DNA of 64,000 nt, taken from positions 359,501 through 423,500 of the forward strand of contig CAUYUJ010000958.1 of NCBI GenBank assembly GCA_963575745.1, written 5' to 3'. Shown piece by piece: positions 12,088-47,754 of this stretch (position 1 is its first letter; the number at the start of each line of letters is the position of its first letter). The stretch comes from Prorocentrum cordatum (Eukaryota > Sar > Dinophyceae > Prorocentrales > Prorocentraceae). The notes beneath the pieces are model-generated. The model was not told the DNA's origin, ran no database searches, and saw only the letters and a program-made list of their open reading frames with translations. The translations under genes and the position numbers were made by a program.

Positions 12088-12870
12088 TCGTTTCGCTTTT
12101 TCCGCCGGCCCATTTTCGCGCACGGGGAGGCAGTGCACAGGAAGCTCTTAAGAGTTCTCCGAGGCTTTCGGGGACGTCTCAACCTGGAGCCTTTCTGGGG
12201 CCCTTGGGGGTCTCTCGGCGGCCTCCTGACAGCCTGTTGGGGGCCTCTTGGGGCCTCGGGGGTACCTCCCTCTGGGGACCTCCTGGGGGCTGCTTGTGGC
12301 CGAGGGCTCGAACTGTTGTTTCGTGTTTCCCCTCTGGGGCCTCTCTTGGGGCGTTCTTAGGGCCTTCTTGGGCCGTCTTGGAGTCGTCTTGGGCGGTCCT
12401 TTGGAGCCCCCTTGGGCCGTCTTGAAACTCTCCTGCGGCCTTCTTGGACCCTCTTGGGGCGATATTGGGGACCTCTTGGGCCGTCTTGAGGCGTCGGGAA
12501 GCCGAAAAGGGGGAAACGCCCAAATCTGTCCAAAACATCAGGTAAATCAATGAATTTTACCTCTTGGGGTCCTCTTGGGAGTGCTTTTGGAAGCCTCTTG
12601 GGACGTCTGGGGGCAATCTTGGGCATCTTGGAGCGATCTTGTGGCATCTTGGAGCCCTCTTGTTTTATCTTGGGGGCCTCTTCGGGGCCTCTTTACCCTT
12701 CTTGGGGCTTTCTGGACGCCCACCCGACCCGACCCGGCCGGGGATCTCAGACCCGAACCGGTCAGGGACCGCCCGGGGTATTTTTCGTCCGGGGACCCCC
12801 AGTGGCCGCTCCGCGCGCGCGAAGTAGAAATAGTGTACGTTGTTAGCCTCTGGCCCGTTGGGCCTGCGAA
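12088..12870 (+). repeat. composite repeat C, copy 1
   Basis: Three parts in order: an entry motif (ATCGCTTCGCTTTTTCCGCC); a long degenerate array of CTTGGGGCC/TCTTGGG words; and a conserved exit module with TTTTTCGTCCGGGGACCCCC, GCGCGCGCGAA and TCTGGCCCGTTGGGCC. The same order occurs at 42150-43015 and 44138-44530. This copy abuts the plastid-lumen protein gene, and the open frame of that gene reads back into it by chance. Confidence 0.75.
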
Positions 12871-13048
12871 TTTGAGACGTGCCTCAAGTTTGACTGCCTT
12901 TGTGTGGCTGCTGTGGTTGCTACAGCCGTGTGGGAGGCTCAGCAGCAAGATTCCGCCATCACCTGCCACTAACTTTGCCTATGGCCCTGTCAGCAGAGTC
13001 TCCCAGAGGCTTCTCTGCCTTCACGGTGGTCGCCGGGCTACAATAACA

Positions 13049-13963
13049 GGTCAGTTTGCCAATTCGCACGATGCCTTGCATTCTGCTCGACCAGCCGCAC
13101 CACCATATCAGCCCGAACCAGCAGTCGCGTTGGCCTCATCGTCACGAAGATTCACTGTTCATGCAACCGTTGCAGGGCTTTTGTCAACGAGTCGGCCTGC
13201 ACCAGCTGTCGCAGAAGGATATATTGGGCTTCGTGCCCGGCTTGCCCAGCGCGATCTACAAGAGCTGAAGTCCCCCATCTTTAACATACCGCCTCGACAG
13301 CAGACGTATCCGGAATGGCTAGAAGGCACTTGGCTTGTAGAGCAGAGTTTTAATTCTGCTGCATTTCCTGTTGTCGCCCGGGAGACTGTCATTCGCGAAG
13401 AAGATACTCCTGGTTTCAAAGTTTGCTCTATCATCGATTTCGCGGACGTTGGCAAGCCAAGCGTCATGTATGAGTCGCGTTATGTCAGGGAGCAAGGCGT
13501 GCTGGTGGAAGATTTGCCATTTAACATCAGATCTTCTGTGAGCGCCCATCTGGGTGGCAACAAGAGCGTCAGCCGCGTGGACTACATGCCCGAGAAGGAC
13601 CCGAATCGCTGGACCGTTGCCATACAGGGCAGCAAGAACGCAGAGCGTGTGGAGGTCTTTGTTAACGCACGCGACTCGGAGTCTCCACCAAGTGACCCCG
13701 ACCTCTTCTTCTCAAGCGAGTGCCGGCGGCAGGTTACGTTCTCGAGCCGAGTCCTGCAGGGGTACAGCGGCAATTACCAGCATTTCAAGATATATCGAAG
13801 GCTGGACGGAGACCATGTGCGCCTGAACGTCATAACTGCTTCCTACTTCGACCCACTGAGCCCAAAATATTTTGAGACTGTTGACAAGCCCGTCGTGGTA
13901 TTTCGACATCAGATGAACCTAACGCGCACCTCGGCTTCGCTTTCGACGCCACCCTTGGTTTGA
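13049..13963 (+). CDS. DUF6816-like thylakoid-lumen protein (5' exon(s) missing)
   Basis: The molecular function is unknown. The globular part, from YPEWLEGTW (about residue 87) through KPSVMYESRYV to YFETVDKPVVVFRHQMNLT near the end, resembles the DUF6816-type proteins of plant, algal and cyanobacterial thylakoids; this is from memory of the family, not a search. Before it lies a lumen-targeting region: twin arginines at residues 33-34 (SSRRF), a hydrophobic stretch and APAVA|E at about 51-56, fitting Tat-type import and lumen cleavage. The frame stays open upstream but runs into a repeat and has no ATG, so a 5' exon with signal peptide and transit peptide is expected. The chosen start follows a possible acceptor, AACAG, at 13045-13049, and is only approximate. 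The frame closes naturally after the domain. It is the only convincing host metabolic or organelle gene here, and it lies directly downstream of composite repeat C. Confidence 0.72.
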   Translation, partial: GQFANSHDALHSARPAAPPYQPEPAVALASSSRRFTVHATVAGLLSTSRPAPAVAEGYIGLRARLAQRDLQELKSPIFNIPPRQQTYPEWLEGTWLVEQSFNSAAFPVVARETVIREEDTPGFKVCSIIDFADVGKPSVMYESRYVREQGVLVEDLPFNIRSSVSAHLGGNKSVSRVDYMPEKDPNRWTVAIQGSKNAERVEVFVNARDSESPPSDPDLFFSSECRRQVTFSSRVLQGYSGNYQHFKIYRRLDGDHVRLNVITASYFDPLSPKYFETVDKPVVVFRHQMNLTRTSASLSTPPLV

Positions 13964-14800: not shown

Positions 14801-15987
14801 AGAGGATGAGGGTTAGGATGACATGAGGAGTGATGAGTTGGAGGACCAGGATGTGGAGGAAGAGGTGGAAGAAAGGGTAGAGTGGGGGCGACGTGGAGGA
14901 GGAACCCCGCGAGCGCGGCCACTGGCAGCTGGCGGCCTTGGCTGGCCGCGGGGACCTCCGAGGACCACGGTGTGCAGAGCTGGTACAAACTGACCGACCA
15001 GGCGCCGCGCTCGCTCCCTCGCAGACCTCCGCCGGGTGCTGCTGGAGGTGGCCCCGGCCCGAGGTGCCCTCCCCCCTCTCCAGCTCAGGGACAACGACAG
15101 GGGGGCATGGGTTCATGGGGGGACGCATCGACTCCCAGTCCCCCGCTCATTGCCGAGAGGGTCCCGATGGCTGACCCCAGGAACGTGCGGATGCACCATC
15201 GGGGGCCTATCGCCATCGTCGATCTATCGGCGACGTTTCGCCGACTCCAGGTCGATGTTTTCCCCCCTTCTGCCAGCCCCCCCCCATCGTTGCCCTTCAG
15301 GGTGCTCCCCAGCTGGTCGCGCCGTTTTGGGACCCCTGGGGCCCTCGGTCGCGAGAGGTGCTCTGGAGGCCGGGCCTCCTCGGATCGTCCGGGGCCACCT
15401 CGGGCCATGGCACCCTCTGGCAACACGCTGCTCCGGCGTATTGGAGAACCAGTGCGGCCTGTGCGTGCCCTCCCCGACCGTCCAAAGACGGCGCTTGACG
15501 AAAAACCCGCCCTGGGGGGGTGGAAGGGTCTTGCCTTCAGGGGGACCTCGTAGTGAACAGATCAAGACATCGGATCTCTGGGCCTCGAGTCTCGAAGATG
15601 GACTGTTGGAGCGCTCTTGGCCCTTCGCGTCGGGCGGCGAAAGCTATACCCAGAGGGGCCAGGAGGACGAGGTCCAGGAGGCGGATGTGCAGGAACGAGG
15701 GGTGGGAAGCGCCCCGTTGCCAGCTGGCTGCCTGGCCCAGTGGCATGGCTCTCGCTTCGGGCGCGAGCGGTCCCGGGTGCAATGCCCGGAGCAGCCCCAT
15801 GGCTGCGCCCTTGGCGATGGGGGCGCCAGCGGTGGGGCTGCATGGAGCGCGCCACCCTAGCCTTGAGCCCCTTGGTCACGGGAGGAATAACCACCCGGAC
15901 CGGACAATTGGCGTTTTAGGCAACTGCCCTGGGCGTTTTTATTACACAGCTCCGCCCTGCTCGATGCCCGCTTCGGGCGCGTTTGCT
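14801..15987. other. non-coding with dispersed repeat B, copy 2
   Basis: The only recognisable element is dispersed repeat B at 15183-15270 (ATCGGGGGCCTATCGCC, CGATCTATC, CAGGTCGATGTTTT, then a C run), homologous to 10821-10895. The rest is GC-rich with overlapping open frames in all frames and no domain. Confidence 0.55.
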
Positions 15988-16580: not shown

Positions 16581-18479
16581 TAAGTCTGCCGCCATGGGCA
16601 CACCCGCAGGTGCGGTCGTGGTCGCAGGCAGGACTCAGAGGAGGAAAAGGTGCCCATACCTCTACCCTTTCCTCGTTTTCCCCTTTTTGGGCCTCCTCGG
16701 AGGCCCTCGTCGCCACCGTCGGATTCGCCTCGAAATTCTGGTCAGAACGCACCCCGGGAGAGGTCCGGGGAGTAGCGGTATCGGTTCCTTTAGAATTCTC
16801 CAAAGACATCTCGGAGTTTGCCAGAGGTGATCCCGGCCCGGCACTGCCTGGCGCGCGCCGAGGGGGGGAAGTGCGAGGGGGTGCAGGCCTTCTCAGACGG
16901 CGGCGGGGCATTTCAAAAGCCTTCGGGCCTTCTGAGAACCCCTCTACGTCTTCGGAGAAGGCTCAGAGCGCTTCTCAGAAGGCCACAGGCCTTCTGAGCC
17001 TTACGAGAAGGCCCGCTCCCTCTGCCTCCCCCCCATGGGCGCACCGCCGAGTGGTGGTGGTGGTGGTGTTCCCAGCCCTTCGGTGTCTGCAACGTCTCAA
17101 GCCGGATGTTTGTTGCCACATTTTGTTCTCTGGGGTCCGTTGTCGGCCTCTTGGGCCACCAGACACCGATGCGCGACCACCAAGAATTGCTCTCGGGAAG
17201 AGGTCGAGATATTGGGCGCCCGCGCACTGCAACCCAAACTGGAAATGCAGGTATGGGTATATGCAGTTGCTGCTTTCAGTTCGCAGTTTGGCGTTTGAAG
17301 ATTGTTCCTCCTCCCCTCCCTCCCTCCCATCCTCCTCTGTCCTTCCTTTTCTCTCCTCCCTTCTCCACCCCAGTGTTGTGTCACCGAGCTATGTGGTCGC
17401 GGGTGTCGAGGAGGGAGGCATCCTGTTCGAGCCCCCATCAAGAGGAGGGCTGAGCTTCGACTTGCGCCCGTCGACGCGGGCAGGGACCTTGCAGGCTCTC
17501 AGCCTTCCAGTCTTCCAGTCCATCTCCACCCCAGAGCTCCGACGATTCGATGTCTCCTGATCTCCCGCCTCGTGACGTGAAACCGTGTAGCAGGCGCCCC
17601 ACCCCCGCCTGGACCTCTGTTGCCGCCGCCTGACGCCCTCGTGCCTGCTCTCCGCGGCTCCCCCCCACCCAGGTGGTGCAGACCGACTGCTCGCAGATGA
17701 TCTTCCTGGTCAGGCGCGCGGCCGCGCAGCTCCGCGGGCCTCCAGAGGTCCAGAGGCCTCTGGGCGTCTCCCGAGGTCCGCGGGCGCCCTCCCAGAGACT
17801 TCGGAGCCCCCGAGCGGGTCAGGTGTTTGTTGAACCTCGCCTCCTCGTCCTCGTTGATGAGGCCCAGAGATGCTGCCGTCGCTCCCTGTGAGGAACTGGG
17901 CGGCCTCCCCCCGCACCCCTGGGGGGTAGCCCCTCCCCCCTTGTTGAGCTCATTGGGCAGGGGGTGCGCGCGCGCTCTTCCCTGTCCAGACTCACTCTCC
18001 AGACGGACCAGACAAACCATCACCATACTCCTCCTCTTCCTCTTTCCTCCTCTTCATCTTCTTCCTCCTCCTCCGCCTCCTTTCCGTCCTCCTCCTCCTC
18101 CTCCTCCTCCCCCCATTGGTAAGTCAAATGCACGGGGCTCGAGAGCGAGGGCCAGGGGAGCTGGGCCCATCTTCAATGAAACCGTCTATCAGCCATCGCA
18201 CATTCCCCAATCAGTGCTTGCACTGAAGGGGTCCTAGCGGATATTGAAAGGTTTGGCGAAAGTTTCCCGCCGATTTTGGTCGCCGGCTGGGTTCCTGGGT
18301 TCTCGGTTCCAGGTTCCTGGGTTCCGTCGACGGGCCTTCTGAGGTCGTCTATCTTGGAGGCCTCTTTTTGGGCCGTTTCGAACCGAGGGATGCCCGAAAA
18401 GGCGAGCATGCCATCGCACCAGAGAAAAAACCCAATCAGTGGATGGTTTGAAAACTTTGGCACGCCCAAGGGGGGTATC
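16581..18479. other. no gene recognised
   Basis: GC-rich sequence. CTTCTGAGAA/CTTCGGAGAA-type words cluster at 16915-17005, and a short TCC-rich tract lies at about 18025-18115. At 18165-18235 and 18410-18470 short sequences resemble each other (TCAGCCATCGCAC...CCAATCAGTG / ATGCCATCGCACC...CCAATCAGTGG). No coding frame stands out. Confidence 0.45.
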
Positions 18480-34194: not shown

Positions 34195-34493
34195 GGACGA
34201 CGACGACGACGACGACGACAACCAGGACGACGACGGCGACGACGACGACGGCGCCGCCGACGCCGCCGACGCCGACGCCGCCGACGCCGACCCGCGTGCG
34301 CCCCGGGGCCGTGCGGCTGGCGCAGAGCGGCGTCGCTGGCCTCGGACCGCCCCGCCCGCGGCCGGGCTGCGCGGGCGGCCTCTCGGCGGGCGCGGCCCCG
34401 GGGGCCGCCACCTCTCGCCGGGGGCTTCCTCCTCCTCCTCCTCCTCCTCCTCCTCCTCCTGCTCCCTGCTCCTCCTCCTCCTCCTCCTCCTCC
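34195..34493. repeat. (CGA)n, GC-rich link and (TCC)n preceding the LINE
   Basis: CGA triplets (34195-34290) are followed by GC-rich sequence and TCC triplets (about 34425-34493) that abut the spliced-leader sequence. The TCC run is probably the insertion target of the LINE. Confidence 0.85.
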
Positions 34494-34515
34494 TCCGTAG
34501 CCATTTTGGCTCAAG
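34494..34515 (+). other. relict dinoflagellate spliced leader (DinoSL)
   Basis: The 22 bases begin T-CCGTAGCC, continue ATTTTGG and end CTCAAG. They match the conserved dinoflagellate leader (D-CCGUAGCC...CUCAAG, D = U, A or G) at all positions. The next bases are ACTCC, not a GT donor, so this is not an SL RNA gene. It is the leader as it would appear at the 5' end of a mature trans-spliced mRNA, copied back into the genome. Confidence 0.96.
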
Positions 34516-34520
34516 ACTCC

Positions 34521-34691
34521 ATGTTCCCTGGGGACAAAGTGGAGACCTCTGATCCGAGGCCAGACCCCAGGTTTCTTTGCAGCCACTGGGTCTCGTACCC
34601 CCCAGTGGTCAAGAGTCCTTTCCGCTTCCGCCCGCAGGTCTCTCGTGCGACATGTCGAGCGAAGGATCTGGAGGTGTGCCCGCGGCAGTGA
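34521..34691 (+). CDS. short upstream ORF in LINE 5' leader
   Basis: The first ATG after the spliced leader (6 bases downstream of it) opens a 56-codon frame ending TGA at 34689-34691. It overlaps the start of the ORF1 frame in another phase. Whether it is translated is unknown; it would require reinitiation or leaky scanning to reach ORF1. Confidence 0.3.
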   Translation: MFPGDKVETSDPRPDPRFLCSHWVSYPPVVKSPFRFRPQVSRATCRAKDLEVCPRQ

Positions 34692-36193
34692 GTACGCCCG
34701 TCGACGTGGATGAGGAGATGGAGGAAGTCCCAGTCTCGCACCTCGAGCGTATCGCCAGAGCAATGGAGGTGAACGCTGCATCCACGAAGAAGCTAGAGGC
34801 TCAGTTGCTTTCAATGTCCGAGAGTAATGAGAAGGTCATGCATGAGGTCGTGAAGATTGGCACCCTCGAGGCAAGAGTAGTCCAGATCGAGAACGCGCTG
34901 GCCCAGCTTCCGCAAGGAGCCAGTCAGGGGGATCTCGCAGTCCAGGCCCAGGTCTCAGCGCTGTCCGTGAAGATGGAGAAGAATATCAAAGACCTGCGTA
35001 ATGAGATGAGAACGGCGTCTACGGCTTCGGCAGGTTCTGGAGTGACGCCTCGTCCTGCCAAGTTCTCCCGTGCAGCGAGTACGGCCCCAACGGGGACTCC
35101 CGCCCATGACGATGTTCCAGACGAGTGCCGACGCTGGATAAGTGGCTTTCCAAGACCACTCATGGTCCCAGCGCGTGAGGCTCACTTTGAACGACTTAAG
35201 AATCATGTGCTGCGCCACATGGCCGAGAAGATGACCGCCCGCTTCGCTCGTGTCAGCCAGAGCTACAGTGTCCACTTCGAGACGCCTTCACTTGCGCGAG
35301 AGTTTCATGACTTCATGGTTGGGAACCCGATGAAATGGAAGGATCAAAGGTCTCAGGTTGAGCATGATGTCCGCGTGAGAGCTGATTTGCCAGGTGATGT
35401 TCGCAGTCGCCAGCGGCAACTCGGTCGCATCTGGTTGCCTATGAAGGAGCTTCTCGTACAGAAGGGGGTGTGGAATCAATCCGTGAGGATGGGTGCGAAC
35501 GGTTTCCGCAACGAGTTCTATTTCATCAAGGACGATGACATTTGGGTTATGTTTCGTGGCTCGCTCGACCCGCTCGGACGGTTGCAGTGTGCCGTGACGG
35601 ATGATTTCTGGAGCCTAAACTTTACTCAGGCAGATGCTGATCGGTTGTTGGGGTTACTGAACCAATCGGATCCTACGCTACCAGGATTTGGGAATAATTC
35701 GCTGCCCGCAAGTAGCCGAGGCGGCACGCGCACTGAGAACGGCCAGGAGGCGTCCAGGCTGTGCCAGGATGCTTTGTTCCCATCCTCTTGCTCCTCTTCT
35801 TCTTTCTCTTCCTCTTCGCCCAGGACATCGTATGACTCGGAGTCGAGTTGCTCGTCGGAGGGTGATTTTGATGATCCGAATATTCGCGTTGTTCCGTTCG
35901 TTCCCGACCGTCGATTTCGTATTATTACTTGGATTGTTCGCGCTCTCTTTGGCTCCCTGCATTCGGACGTGGGACAGCAGGCGAGGACACGTGCGACTTT
36001 GATGTCGTTGTGCCGATCTGCTGATGTGGTGGTCTTGCAGGAATGCCATGGATGCAAGGATGACCTTCTTCTTCTCCTCTCTGACCTTCGTGTATTTAAA
36101 GGTTGGGGCTCGTTTCTTCCCGACCGTGCGGCTGGAGGTGCAGTTATCCTGGCTCGTTCGATTTTTTGCGCAGTTTGTGCACGTCAAGCATGA
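34652..36193 (+). pseudogene. LINE ORF1-like region fused to endonuclease N-terminus
   Basis: I prefer the ATG at 34652 (MSSEGSGGV); an in-frame ATG at 34577 is also possible. After an acidic N-terminus come heptad-rich helices (SHLERIARAMEVNAAS to MRTAST), likely a coiled coil for trimerisation as in LINE ORF1 proteins. Next is a compact region from CRRWISGFPRPLM through YSVHFETPSLAREF to NEFYFIKDDDIWVMF, compatible with an RRM-like nucleic-acid-binding fold. A Ser-rich linker follows, then the start of an APE-type endonuclease: FRIITWIVRALFGS and ADVVVLQECHG, where the Glu of LQE is the metal ligand. The frame is lost at a T6 run at 36162-36167. ORF1-like and endonuclease parts share one frame, so the element may encode a single polyprotein. 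Confidence 0.82.
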
Positions 36194-36812
36194 GGTTATC
36201 GCTGGTGGGCGATGCCATTGTATTCATTTGAGGGGGAGGAAGGGATGTATGACAGTCATTAACATGCACATTGATCCAGCTCTTTCTAACGGAATGAAAT
36301 ATGGGTTGATTCGGCAGGTCGCTTTCCGTGTGAAACCTGTTGACAAGTACGCTACATGGATTTTGGGTGATTTTAACTGTTTGGATCCTGGGGGCTCCTG
36401 TATTTTTCTGCAAGCAGAACCTGTTGCCGCCAAAACCGACACGGTGGGCAGTTTCTTTGCTGGCATTTTTCCCTTCATGTGCGAGGTGGCCCAACTCTAC
36501 CCTACGTATCGAGTGAAACAAGACGAGGAAATCATCTCCGCTGGGCGTCTGGATAGAGTCTATGCCAGTTTGGACTCAGGGCACTTACTCGATTTGAAGC
36601 CTGCCGCGGGTGTTATTTGGCCAGTTACTGACTTGTCGAAGCCGAGTGACCATACCCCTGTATACGTTTCCGTGTTTCTTGGTCCGCGAAATGACTTTCC
36701 TCGGATTCTTTCATGGGTCACTGGAAAGCATCAGTTTTCGGAAGCTGTTGTGGATCTGTGGGAGGACATGCCTTCGTTTTCGTCAGCTTTTACTTACTCG
36801 GCTTCGAGGTCT
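36165..36812 (+). pseudogene. LINE APE-type endonuclease, C-terminal part
   Basis: Continues the endonuclease one base out of phase with the preceding segment. It shows MTVINMHIDP, the catalytic-site motif ATWILGDFNCLDPGG (Asp and Asn of GDFN), a GRLDRVYAS block and the terminal SDHTPVYV with the catalytic His. These are the classic apurinic/apyrimidinic endonuclease motifs that nick target DNA to prime reverse transcription. The frame passes into the reverse transcriptase through another +1 shift near 36800-36830, where FTYSA is followed in the next frame by LTRLRGLKEVFHEAA. Confidence 0.85.
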
Positions 36813-38400
36813 GAAGGAGGTGTTTCACGAAGCTGCTCGTCGCGTCAAAGCTGGTCTGTCAGTATCGGGTCCTGAATCAGCAGCTGAGCTCCTCTCTTGG
36901 TTCTTTGCGGTCCTGCGCGCCATGGCGCAGAACAGTGTGTTTATCGTTCGCAAGGCTATGCGCGCTGTGCCAGAGATGTCGAAGTATGTGGACGAGGGGG
37001 TTGGATGGTGGGTGGACTACGGAGGATCCATGGAGAGGATGAGGGCGGTTTCGGAGTCGGTGTTAGACGAGGAGGTGAAGGATTTGTTCGCGTCTCCGTC
37101 GCTTTCTCACGAGTACAAAGTCAAGAAAGCGCAGCATATCCAGAGGCACATTCAAGCTTGGAGAGCTCGTAATCGGAGGTTGGTGCTTGCAGGAGTGGAG
37201 GCTCCTGACGGCAATGTTCCCGACACCCAGGCCGGGTGTGCTGCGTTGCTGGCTGATCATTGGGGTAGGGTTCTTTCTAATCAAGCTAGGGGGCGGGTTC
37301 ATCAACTTCCTTTCCAACGTTTCGTCCAAAGAGCCTCGGAAAATGTGATTTGGGACGCCTCGTTTGAGCAGTTCAAACTGGGACTGAGACGCTTTCGTGA
37401 CTCGGCGCCTGGTCCTGATGGGGCCCCTTTCAGTTGTTACTCGGCCGCTGGGGATCTCGGAGCAGAAGTGTTGTGCGAAGCCTACCTTGCGCTCCTCAGG
37501 GGCGAGGCGGACGACGACGAGTTTAATCTGTGCCTTGCAGTATTTATCCCGAAGGGGGAGATGCCTGAGTCTGTGGACGGGTTGATCTCTAGTCCGCCTG
37601 AGACTCGGCCGATATGTCTGGGGCATACGGATAATAAAATTATCAGCGGGTGGATCAATTGGGGGTTGGCGAGACAGGCTTCGATTTCGTGCGCGAGTCC
37701 GCAGCGCGGGTTTGTGCTGCGCAGATTTTTGAACGACAATGTTCTCGAGGCTGCGTCTGGGCTCGCGATGTGGTGCTGTGTGTCTGGGCACAGAGCGTCG
37801 GGTTGCATCCTTCTCGATATTCGGGCCGCGTTTCCGTCTCTTAACCACGGTTGGATTTGGTGGATCTTGGAAACAATGGGAGTGCCGAGGTGTATCATAC
37901 GTGCCTTGAGGTTTCTGTATTCGGGTATTCGAGCGACCATCGTTCTGGGAGGCCAACGTTTTCCTGGCTTCGAGATCGAGTCTGGGATAAAACAGGGGTG
38001 TCCCGCCTCGGGGTCGATCTTCGCGCTCTCGCTGGACCCCCTTATTCGTGCCCTCGTTTGTGCGTTGCCAGAGCCAGAGTCTTGTCTGTGTGGATTCGCG
38101 GACGACCTGATGCATGGCTCGCGTGACCTGTTCGAGACTGTTCCGAATGTGCTGGTGGTAATGAACCAGTGTGCCTTGGCGGCGGGATTGCAACTGAATA
38201 GCAATGAGACCGTGGTTGTCTTTATGGAGGAGTTCCAGGAGTCGTATGTTCGTGATCGGTTTGATGAGCTGGGAGTCGACTTGGGGAGAATATGTATTCG
38301 GACGCGTGGGAAATACCTTGGGATTTTCCTGGGCCGAGGTGGAGGGGAGGTGAGCTGGAGGGATCCGATGGTGAAGTATGTGAGGAGGGTACGTGAATTA
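36813..38400 (+). pseudogene. LINE reverse transcriptase
   Basis: A linker helix region (HEAARRVKAGLSVSG) precedes the polymerase. Reverse-transcriptase blocks are visible in order: SAPGPDGAPFS (block 0), LAVFIPKG (1), ETRPICLG (2), GCILLDIRAAFPSLNH (A, with first catalytic Asp), GIKQGCPASGSIFAL (B), LCGFADDLMH (C, the FADD pair) and GLQLNSNETVV (D). All catalytic aspartates are retained. The domain would make cDNA by target-primed reverse transcription. The frame is uninterrupted over the whole domain and breaks near 38400, at the thumb. Confidence 0.93.
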
Positions 38401-39434
38401 CGTGGGCTGGGATTGGGACGAGTCGACGCTTTTGAGCTACAAGTCCCTCGCTCTGCCTGTCACGCAATTCGTCGCCCAGTTCTTTGAGCCGCCCCCCTGC
38501 GCTGTACCGTCTGGAAGACGAGTGCCTGCAGCTGCTTGTGAACGGGCCGCGTCATGCTGTCCCCCGAGCTGTCTTCTTCGATCTTGAGGCGATAGGCGTC
38601 AAGCTCCATCTACCGCAGTTGCGGCAACTATGCATGGCGGCCAGATATCGGACCGCGAAAAAAAGTAAGATGTCCCCCAAGCTGATTCAACAGTACAGGG
38701 ACTTGATTGAGTCTGACGATTTCCTGATTGCACACCAGTTCTCTGATTTGTTCCTCCAGAGCCCGCTGTACCAGTTGAACCGTGTTTTCGAGATGCTGGA
38801 TAGGATTCCCGAGGTCCCTGATGATCCAGATAAACGTAACTTCCAGGCTGCTGTGTTACGTGCGATTGAAAAAAGTGACCCGCCAGAATCCGCGTGTCAG
38901 GCTTTGATTCCGAGATTGCAGTGCTTCTTTGGGCGTGAGACGGTCCGACAAGAAATGGGCACCATGCTGATGATTAGAGTAGGTCGTCTAGGGCAGGTGC
39001 TCCCTGGCTTTGTGATGAGTAGTCTGATCAAAACAATGTGCAACGCGTGGTGCACCACGCGTAGGTACCACCATGGGCCCGACAGGTGCAAATTCGGTTG
39101 TTGCTCTGTTGGAGGAGATGACGTCCTCCACTATCTGGTTTGTCCTGTCTCCTCGCCTGTTGTTTCAGCTCTGCTCCCTCTTTTGCCTCATGATTACTCC
39201 GAATGGAGCAGTGAAAGGAAGCTGTGCCCTTTGTTTTTTTTCGATGGCTCCATTCATGCGCATGCGAGTTGTGTCATTGCCATTGATCTGCTCTTTCATG
39301 CTTACAACAAGGTAAGGAATTCAGGCCGGAGGCTGAAAGTGGCCAACCTCCTCAAGGCGCGGGCCAAGGTGCTGGCCCAGAGGCAGGCGGGGCTGCGGCG
39401 CCTGCTCAGGGGAGAACACGCGGGGTTGGGATGA
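38400..39434 (+). pseudogene. LINE C-terminal thumb and zinc-knuckle region
   Basis: The sequence WDESTLLSYKSLALPVTQFV lies in one frame to about 38490. A C6 run at 38492-38497 then shifts the reading to the frame with ALYRLEDECLQLLVNGPRHA, which is open to the TGA at 39432-39434. Near the end is a Cys/His cluster, RCKFGCCSVGGDDVLHYLVC (C-x3-C ... H-x3-C), the zinc knuckle typical of LINE C-termini that helps bind the RNA template. The basic tail (RRLKVANLLKARAKVLAQRQ) ends a few bases before the downstream CTC array. Confidence 0.82.
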
Positions 39435-39440
39435 GCGCAC

Positions 39441-39461
39441 CTCCTCCTCCTCCTCCTCCCC
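39441..39461. repeat. (CTC)n at the LINE 3' boundary
   Basis: Six CTC triplets begin within about ten bases of the LINE stop codon and match the TCC run on the 5' side. Confidence 0.85.
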
Positions 39462-39944
39462 TGTGCCGCCGACTGACCTCAGGAGGGAGAGGTCCCCACG
39501 CGCCGCCGCCCTTGCCTTTTGTTTTCGCCCTGTGGGCATCCCGTGGAGGCCCTCGTCGATGCCGCTGGATTCGCTTCGAAGTTCTGGTCAGGGCTCTCCC
39601 TAGGAGAGGTCCGTTGAGCAGCGGTATCGGTGCCTTCTGGCATCCCCATGGCTCGCCCAGGACCCGAGTCCCTAAGAAGCCCAAGCGAGGGATATCCCCA
39701 CGCGGCCGTGGGAGGGCCCCACCTCTCCTCGCCCCCGTCTTCTCCTTCCTCTCCTTCCTGTGCTCCCCCTCTCCTGCTCATCCTCCTCTCAGCGTACCTT
39801 TACCTGCTTCTTCTTGCTCCCCCATGCTCCTCCCCCTGTTCGCCCTGGTCCCTCCTGTTACTCATTGTCCTCTTCCTCGTGCTCGTCGTCTTCGCCTTCC
39901 TTATCCCGCCGTCGTCCTCGCCGCCTCCCCCGCCGCCGCCGCCG
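39462..39944. other. no feature recognised
   Basis: Pyrimidine-rich and GC-rich sequence with short CTCCT runs. No coding signal or element is seen. Confidence 0.5.
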
Positions 39945-39983
39945 ACGCTTCCGCCGTCGTCATCGTCGTTGCCGTTGCCGTTG

Positions 39984-40021
<38 letters not shown>

Positions 40022-40065
40022 CTCGTCGTCCTCGTCGTCGTCTTCGTCGTCGTCGTCGTTCCAGC
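39945..40065. repeat. (CGT)n array
   Basis: CGT triplets with CGCCG and GTTGCC interruptions; low-complexity translations only. Confidence 0.9.
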
Positions 40066-40267
40066 GCGTGCCCGACAGGTACGTCGTCGTGCTGATCCCG
40101 CGGAGAACCGAGCAAGTTGCCGAAGGGCTCCCTCAGGGGTGGGTGGCCGCGGCGGCGGCGGGCTTGTGCCACACTGGCGACGGGCATTTTTTTGAGCCCA
40201 CTGACTTTCAAAGCCTCCGAAGATAGAGGATAAGAGTCTCGGCCTCCCACATGCGCTTGGGGCAGAT

Positions 40268-40426
40268 GGGTCGGAGGATCGCGCCGCATCGCCGATCCAT
40301 TGGCGATGCGGCTCGATGTCGAGCCCGATCTTCTCAACGCTGGCATCGCCGATGCATCGCCGACGTCGCCGACGCATCGCCGATACATCGGCGTTGCATT
40401 GGCGATGCGGCGCGATCCTTCGACCC
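40268..40426. mobile_element. foldback element 2 with 26-bp terminal inverted repeats
   Basis: The left end GGGTCGGAGGATCGCGCCGC(ATCGCC) and the inverse of the right end GGGTCGAAGGATCGCGCCGC(ATCGCC) differ at one position. Inside, CATCGCCGAT and GCCGACGC words repeat, and a second 11-bp stem, GCCGCATCGCC/GGCGATGCGGC, is nested at the left. No convincing target duplication is seen. It is MITE-like. Confidence 0.68.
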
Positions 40427-46735: not shown

Positions 46736-47754
46736 CAGGAGGAAGAGGAAGATGATGATGAGGAGGAGGAGGAGGAGGAGGAGGAGGAGGAGAAGGAGGA
46801 GGGGGATGAGGAGGAGGAGGAGGAGGACAAGGAGGAGGAGGACGAGGAGGAGGACGAGGAGGAGGAGGAGGAGGAGGAGGAGGAGGAGGAGGAGGAGAGG
46901 CGGGGGAGGGGGAGGGGGAGGGCGCGGGGGAGGGGAGGGGGAGGGGGAGAGGGAAGGGCGAGGAGGAGGAGGCGGAGGAGGAGGAGGAGGAGGAGGAGGA
47001 GGCGGAGGAGGAGGAGGAGGAGGAGGCGGAGGAGGCGGAGGACGAGAGGAGGAGGAGGAGGAGGAGGAGGAGGAGGAGGAGGAGGAGGAGGAGAAGGAGG
47101 AGGAGGAGGAAGAGGAGGAGGAGGAGGAGGAGGAGGAGGAGGAGAGGAGGAGGAGGAGGAGGAGGAGGCGGAGGAGGAGGAGGAGGAGGAGGAGGAGGAG
47201 GAGGAGGAGGAGGAGGAGGAGGAGGAGGAGGAGGAGGAGGAGGAGGAGGAGGAGGAGGAGGAGGGGGGGGAGGGGGAGGGGAGGGGGAGGGGGAGGGGGA
47301 GGGGAGGAGGAGGAGGAGGAGGAGGAGGAGGAGGAGGAGGAGGAGGAGGAGGAGGAGGAGGAGGAGGAGGAGGAGGAGGAGGAGGAGGAGGAGGAGGAGG
47401 AGGAGAGGAGGAGGAGGAGGAGAGGAGGAGGAGGAGGAGGAGGAGGAGGAGGAGGAGGAGGAGGAGGAGAGGAGGCGGAGGAGGAGGAGGAGGAGGAGAG
47501 GAGGAGGAGGAGGGAGGCGGAGGAGGAGGAGGAGGAGGAGGAGAGGAGGAGGAGGAGGAGGAGGAGGAGGGGAGGGGAGGAGGAGGAGGAGGAGGAGGAG
47601 GAGGAGGAGAGGAGGAGGAGGGGAGGAGGAGGAGGAGGAGGAGGAGAGGAGGAGGAGGAGGAGGAGGAGGAGGAGGAGGAGGAGGAGGAGGAGGAGGAGG
47701 AGGAGGAGGAGGAGGAGGAGGAGGAGGAGGAGGAGGAGGAGGAGGAGGAGGATG
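46736..47754 (+). repeat. 1-kb (GGA)n array
   Basis: About 1.0 kb of GGA with rare GGC, GGGG and GAC variants; the + strand is nearly all purine. Stop-free frames hundreds of codons long on both strands are artefacts. Confidence 0.97.

Follow-up and report, generated by a model that had tools for sequence, protein, structure and literature searches.

Dinoflagellate spliced leaders at the 5′ ends of divergent LINEs in Prorocentrum cordatum

SLACS, CZAR and CRE1, the SLACS-type LINEs of trypanosomes, lie beside a spliced-leader (SL) exon and are inserted into SL RNA genes. In dinoflagellates, host retrogenes tagged with the dinoflagellate spliced leader (DinoSL) are already known (Slamovits and Keeling, 2008; Song et al., 2017, both as cited in PMC6050394 and PMC12014239), and SL-bearing transcripts of transposable elements (TEs) have been described in Hydra, where 29.7-30.9% of the TE Iso-Seq reads carry the SL according to the accessible part of PMC12220107. 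Among endogenised RNA-virus RdRp genes, 6 of 26 have a leader within 500 bp, and LINEs are suspected (PMC10235124, in part). The enzyme that makes the thousands of SL-tagged retrogenes of dinoflagellates is called unknown in the passages available of PMC6050394, which favour LTR elements. In the literature searched, outside which lie preprints and most subscription papers, we found no statement that dinoflagellate LINEs start with DinoSL, as far as the accessible passages go (including PMC6050394, PMC12014239, PMC3229502, PMC5890265, PMC10235124, PMC3942190, PMC7245778, PMC8045281, PMC8190864, PMC12220107, PMC11453091 and PMC10666404). LINEs beginning with the leader would place the LINE machinery and SL-capped RNA in one reaction.

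A spliced leader and a LINE in the window

The window is a 64-kb stretch of P. cordatum genomic DNA, from which a sequence-only reading had reported an exact DinoSL at the head of a LINE. The match itself was confirmed: TCCGTAGCCATTTTGGCTCAAG agrees with the consensus DCCGTAGCCATTTTGGCTCAAG (D being T here) throughout and is the sole DinoSL match with three or fewer mismatches in the window, while none of 100 shuffled controls contained a match at this threshold. A (TCC)n array (TRF: period 3, 23 copies) reaches into the leader and takes in its first TCC, which can be attributed to the target or to the leader, so that 19 positions are unambiguous. The dinucleotide directly 3′ of the leader is AC, as in the spliced product, and not the GT, with an intron behind it, that is expected for an SL RNA gene; the window leader is therefore not an SL RNA gene. 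The genomic leader stops at the splice junction, as it does in DinoSL-tagged retrocopies. The Rfam scan of the window at gathering score returned no match of any kind, and the 15-nt form of the leader gave two further matches, both with three mismatches, which is the number expected by chance.

These observations bear on the possibility that a LINE landed, by chance or by site preference, beside a leader already present in the genome, either that of an SL RNA gene or that of a host retrogene. Dinoflagellate genomes do contain DinoSL copies (PMC8045281, in part), but the full leader followed by AC, the absence from the window of a second leader with up to three mismatches, the chance-level count of the 15-nt form and the recurrence of similar junctions in four divergent LINEs (see below) make this origin highly improbable. 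The completeness of the leader and the lack of a second one also differ from a SLACS-type insertion into an SL exon, which would leave a 3′ exon remnant. Nothing in the sampled DNA indicated that the leader belongs to a separate, older retrogene.

The 3′ end of the leader joins the 5′ UTR of a LINE with the order ORF1, endonuclease and reverse transcriptase (RT), so that the second part of the claim was borne out as well (Table 1). When the RT profile was compared with solved structures, the nearest was human LINE-1 ORF2p (3e-48), followed by R2. As in L1-like LINEs, the RVT_1 domain has a catalytic xxDD motif (here FADD) with an L1-type profile, and an AP endonuclease lies N-terminal to it by alignment to relatives; Pfam gave no score to the endonuclease of the split window copy. 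The RT frame has 44 relatives at E≤1e-3 (7994 candidates scored). The profile search listed 27 relatives, 17 of them new, and 11 of these 17 were aligned (P0045-P0055). Seven of the 11 (P0045, P0047-P0051, P0054) match between 35909 and 39407 in four blocks that fall in frames 2, 3, 1 and 3, the other four matching in fewer blocks, and this succession of frames indicates three frame changes in the window copy, one of which, near 36150-36195, breaks the endonuclease. Programmed frameshifting was considered and rejected, because the relatives use one frame across the same stretch. Of the earlier description of a full-length LINE with a complete domain series, the domain order and the full length of ORF2 stand, and the copy itself is broken.

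Table 1. Features of the window LINE, with the position of the C3b LINE for comparison.
Feature	Position	Strand	Remarks
LINE, whole element	about 34494-39660	+	ORF1-endonuclease-RT order
TCC-rich pyrimidine tract, target site or 5′ flank	34427-34496	+	TRF; last 45 nt 96% pyrimidine
Dinoflagellate spliced leader	34494-34515	+	22/22 match
5′ UTR, 136 nt	34516-34651	+	begins at splice junction (ACTCC...)
Conserved block GGAGACCTCTGATCCGAGGCCAGACC	34541-34566	+	contains the shared 10-nt motif TCCGNGGCCA (34553-34562)
ORF1	34652-35902	+	within open frame 34553-36193; long helices predicted at low confidence
AP-type endonuclease, two pieces	35909-36764	+	P0026 aligns to both; also P0047-P0051, P0054
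Reverse transcriptase	36769-38484	+	RVT_1 (PF00078) 8.6e-16, FADD kept
C-terminal part of ORF2	38499-39434	+	behind another frame change, to stop codon
3′ module, probable 3′ end of element	39481-39660	+	common to L040 and L062/L060 LINEs
C3b (L062/L060 LINE)	L060 4138-10000 and L062 1-1904; C3 about 264138-271904	minus

ORF1 and the beginning of the endonuclease are read in the same frame and spanned by one open frame. ORF1 had no Pfam match, and none of the 7996 candidates scored was a homolog at E≤1e-3; a distant match (26%, 9.7e-12) was found in a LINE remnant, L057, of the same genome. Its single-sequence structure model was too poor for use (pLDDT 47). Peptides encoded by the leader have only partial, 4-residue matches in relatives (P0026, P0051, P0052). 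At the 3′ end, a junction at 39440, where a TCC tract lies 6 nt past the stop codon, would have meant insertion into (TCC)n; this reading was rejected because the module further downstream is common to other LINEs. No target-site duplication was identified, and this shared 3′ module was found.

Elsewhere in the window, a DUF6816 domain (PF20670, 6.6e-19; 12554-13963, plus strand) was the sole Pfam match in the nine non-LINE frames tested. A tRNA-Pro (cgg) predicted at 15726-15798 (plus strand) is the only tRNA found by ARAGORN (bacterial code). Trinucleotide tracts of at least 5 units number 98 in the 64 kb, and about 1 kb at 46760-47752 consists of near-continuous GGA-type repeats.

Searches of IMG/VR and GTDB genomes confirmed no relatives of the LINE in them. 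The scan of IMG/VR with the 15-nt relict yielded 37 loci, of which 36 are assumed to be chance matches. The remaining one, on the minus strand of IMGVR_UViG_3300045993_001077 (L001, 1936-2913), is an insert of 49% GC in an AT-rich contig (16-19% GC), flanked on both sides by AT-rich frames. The insert opens with two DinoSLs at a spacing of 147 bp, which are followed by a 267-aa frame and finally by an A/T-rich end. It has the appearance of a host cDNA with an SL tag that a large DNA virus captured, provided that the contig is viral rather than chimeric. Two marine MAG contigs with the label Dehalococcoidia also contain DinoSL (L002, 32-52; L003, 4334-4354, minus strand). In one of them a (TCA)n array stands before the leader, and in one GTACGC comes after it, as in the SL RNA gene; both occurrences are probably due to contamination or chimerism.

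Leader-tagged LINEs in the sampled genome

Other LINEs were checked for a 5′ DinoSL in 30 stretches of 10 kb (300 kb) from contigs C1-C4 of the same genome, some of which contain N and some of which were picked beside earlier matches; together with the window they amount to 338,105 non-N bases. Four leaders with no or one mismatch were found in these 338 kb, and all four head LINEs in the sense orientation, so that three further, very different LINEs are tagged like that of the window. The leader of L040 (+639) has no mismatch, that of L062 (minus strand) has none in 21 fixed positions and begins with C in place of T/A/G, and that of L058 (minus strand) has one. Under random placement, the chance that four of four leaders lie within 5 kb upstream of any of nine RT loci is about 2e-5, an estimate that is rough because some stretches were chosen beside matches. 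The bases behind the leader are AC in the window, AT in L040, GT in L062 and AT in L058.

The leader of L062 was found by a targeted fetch of the upstream neighbour of L060, a stretch which held an RT (RVT_1, 9e-13) without a 5′ end. It lies 3.07 kb above the RT match and is followed, after 5 nt, by a single open frame of 2580 codons; GT alone would leave an SL RNA gene possible in this LINE (C3b), but the LINE frame starts 5 nt on. Judged from its open frame and its leader, C3b is a candidate active element. It is the only one of the four tagged LINEs that is open throughout. In L040, the RT frame has 1164 codons (RVT_1 3e-6; 27.5 bits, the cut-off being 29.6) and an endonuclease match, weak at 0.016 and below cut-off, lies in another frame than the RT, so that this copy changes frame too, and in L058 the RT is spread over two frames.

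The frame changes in the window, L040 and L058 would fit an origin of the tagged LINEs as dead-end retrocopies, in which a LINE situated within a host transcription unit gave rise to RNA that underwent trans-splicing and was then copied in trans by another RT, outside the normal LINE cycle. The leaders are single, with tandem relicts in none of the four LINEs, which also fits one round of copying. Such an origin nevertheless appears unlikely, as the C3b copy retains its 2580 open codons and the leaders with no or one mismatch are all on LINEs, unlike the weaker ones of L065 (2 mismatches), L054 (3 substitutions) and L068 (1 substitution and 2 deletions), which are not on LINEs and are without a pyrimidine tract. 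Matches at four to five edits numbered 14, the same level as in five shuffled controls (4 to 17 at five or fewer edits). From these we kept a decayed leader with five substitutions, L064, only since TCCGNGGCCA follows it at the appropriate spacing; the L057 LINE remnant, to which it may or may not belong, is about 9.7 kb downstream of it.

The sample contains nine RT-bearing loci, with two neighbouring L057 fragments counted as one. A leader is present at four, and none was recognised at the other five, which counts against a universal rule. For L066, L057 and a fragment in L062 (joined 17629-18126), more than 5 kb upstream was examined and held no acceptable leader, and for L046 and L067 there was none within the only about 2 kb upstream. 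These loci may be 5′-truncated, decayed or never tagged.

In order of position, what the tagged LINEs share begins upstream of the leader. Pyrimidines make up 93-98% of the 45 nt that precede each of the four leaders; random sites reach 88% at a frequency of 0.019. The ungapped identity over all pairs is 0.54 in this tract (-66 to -23), 0.45 in the 22 nt preceding the leader, 0.95 in the leader itself and 0.41 in the next 22 nt, and it drops to 0.28 at -300 to -100, so that the upstream DNA has no likeness beyond the tract; blastn of window 34300-40300 likewise matched neither L040 nor L058 above it. Homology continuing above the leader, which would have spoken against the sequence-only reading, was thus looked for in the sampled tagged LINEs and not seen past the pyrimidine tract. 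The RTs are 26-30% identical among the window, C3b and L058, and that of L040 has no alignment with any of these three at E≤1. A blastn comparison among the four elements (1e-4) gave four matches, all at element ends. They comprise the opening 77 nt of L040 against the window (77%) and, over about 145 nt, the 3′ module that the window, L040 and C3b have in common (70-77%). L058 had no match in this comparison and no 3′ module; its similarity to L040 (82% over 76 nt) and to the window (80%) spans the leader and the pyrimidine tract before it. In about 338 kb there are nine copies of the 3′ module, three of them on tagged LINEs and six without an RT match nearby. One copy without an adjoining LINE is in the window (16638-16790, plus strand).

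The motif TCCGNGGCCA lies 37-57 nt downstream of the leader in all four tagged LINEs and in L064. Elsewhere, 676 kb over both strands held four further occurrences, and one more falls within the mutated leader of L058. A weak hairpin (CCTC/GAGG) enclosing the motif shows one compensatory pair in L040 and is disrupted in C3b, and five sequences are too few to claim such a structure. The regular placement of TCCGNGGCCA, in the decayed L064 as well, could suggest that the leader is encoded in DNA and inherited in a shared 5′ module (pyrimidine tract, leader and TCCGNGGCCA), acting as a promoter or a mimic, with the RNA starting at or above the leader and no trans-splicing in each round. The tract, present in four of four and somewhat alike between copies, is consistent with this, and so are two published points, both from partly accessible sources: trypanosomatid LINEs own an internal 5′ promoter, Pr77, with unspliced RNA (PMC8190864), and a promoter role of retroposed DinoSL has already been proposed (PMC6050394). 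We regard inheritance of this kind as improbable, since the leader is near-constant, whereas the flanks on both of its sides differ and the RTs are as divergent as described, and since its boundary coincides with the splice junction.

Origin of the genomic leaders

The four leaders that end at the splice junction, each heading one of four divergent LINEs, support the earlier reading that trans-spliced LINE RNA was the template. From the sequences analysed, we consider it probable that LINE RNAs are trans-spliced with DinoSL and that the SL-capped RNA is then copied into DNA. Transcripts of several LINE families would receive DinoSL by trans-splicing at an acceptor just upstream of the 5′ UTR, and the SL-capped LINE RNA would be the template for target-primed reverse transcription, in which case the 5′-most sequence of a full-length copy is a genomic leader. 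The pyrimidine tract may stem from the target DNA, reflect a preference at insertion or belong to the element; in trans-splicing it would act as the polypyrimidine tract for an acceptor AG within the leader.

The leaders are single, without the relict tandems of host-retrogene transcripts, and trans-splicing of LINE RNA therefore needs an extra assumption. Splicing at the inner TAG of the leader would give a tandem of SL and CCATTTTGGCTCAAG, and splicing at its terminal AG would give one leader again. Each round may thus splice at or behind the last AG of the old leader, or the tagged copies may descend from untagged sources. More tentatively, the leader could be a self-renewing 5′ end: landing behind TCC-rich tracts would make its AG the next acceptor, so that one leader is restored per round, TCCGNGGCCA and the 3′ module would adapt otherwise unrelated LINEs to SL-capped RNA, and the same machinery would also generate the host retrogenes that carry an SL.

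The leader would mark full-length LINE copies where TE ends are hard to define. SL-primed full-length cDNA exists for other dinoflagellates (PMC8045281, in part), which makes the question of LINEs and SL-capped RNA testable.

Comparison with known systems

The window LINE resembles SLACS, CZAR and CRE1 in adjoining an SL exon, and differs from them in that no remnant of an SL RNA gene was found here. The trypanosomatid L1Tc/ingi LINEs, with Pr77, a promoter with an HDV-like ribozyme at the 5′ end, as their hallmark, likewise have a short shared 5′ module in an SL-using protist; according to the passages available of PMC8190864, Pr77 yields unspliced transcripts, whereas the 5′ end of the window LINE is the leader itself. 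SymbioLINE-Dnmt elements of Symbiodinium are dinoflagellate LINEs as well, with an ORF1 and an RT-bearing ORF2, but have a DNMT in their ORF1, and the accessible passages of PMC5890265 do not mention a leader. With the DinoSL-tagged retrogenes, as far as these are described in the sources accessible in part, the window LINE shares its origin as a retrocopied RNA whose 5′ end is marked in the genome by DinoSL or a relict of it; here, however, the cargo is a LINE, and the leader is single and nearly complete, with no tandem relict. Finally, in the Hydra TE transcripts the SL is found at the RNA level (PMC12220107, in part), whereas in P. cordatum it stands in the genomic 5′ end of the LINE.
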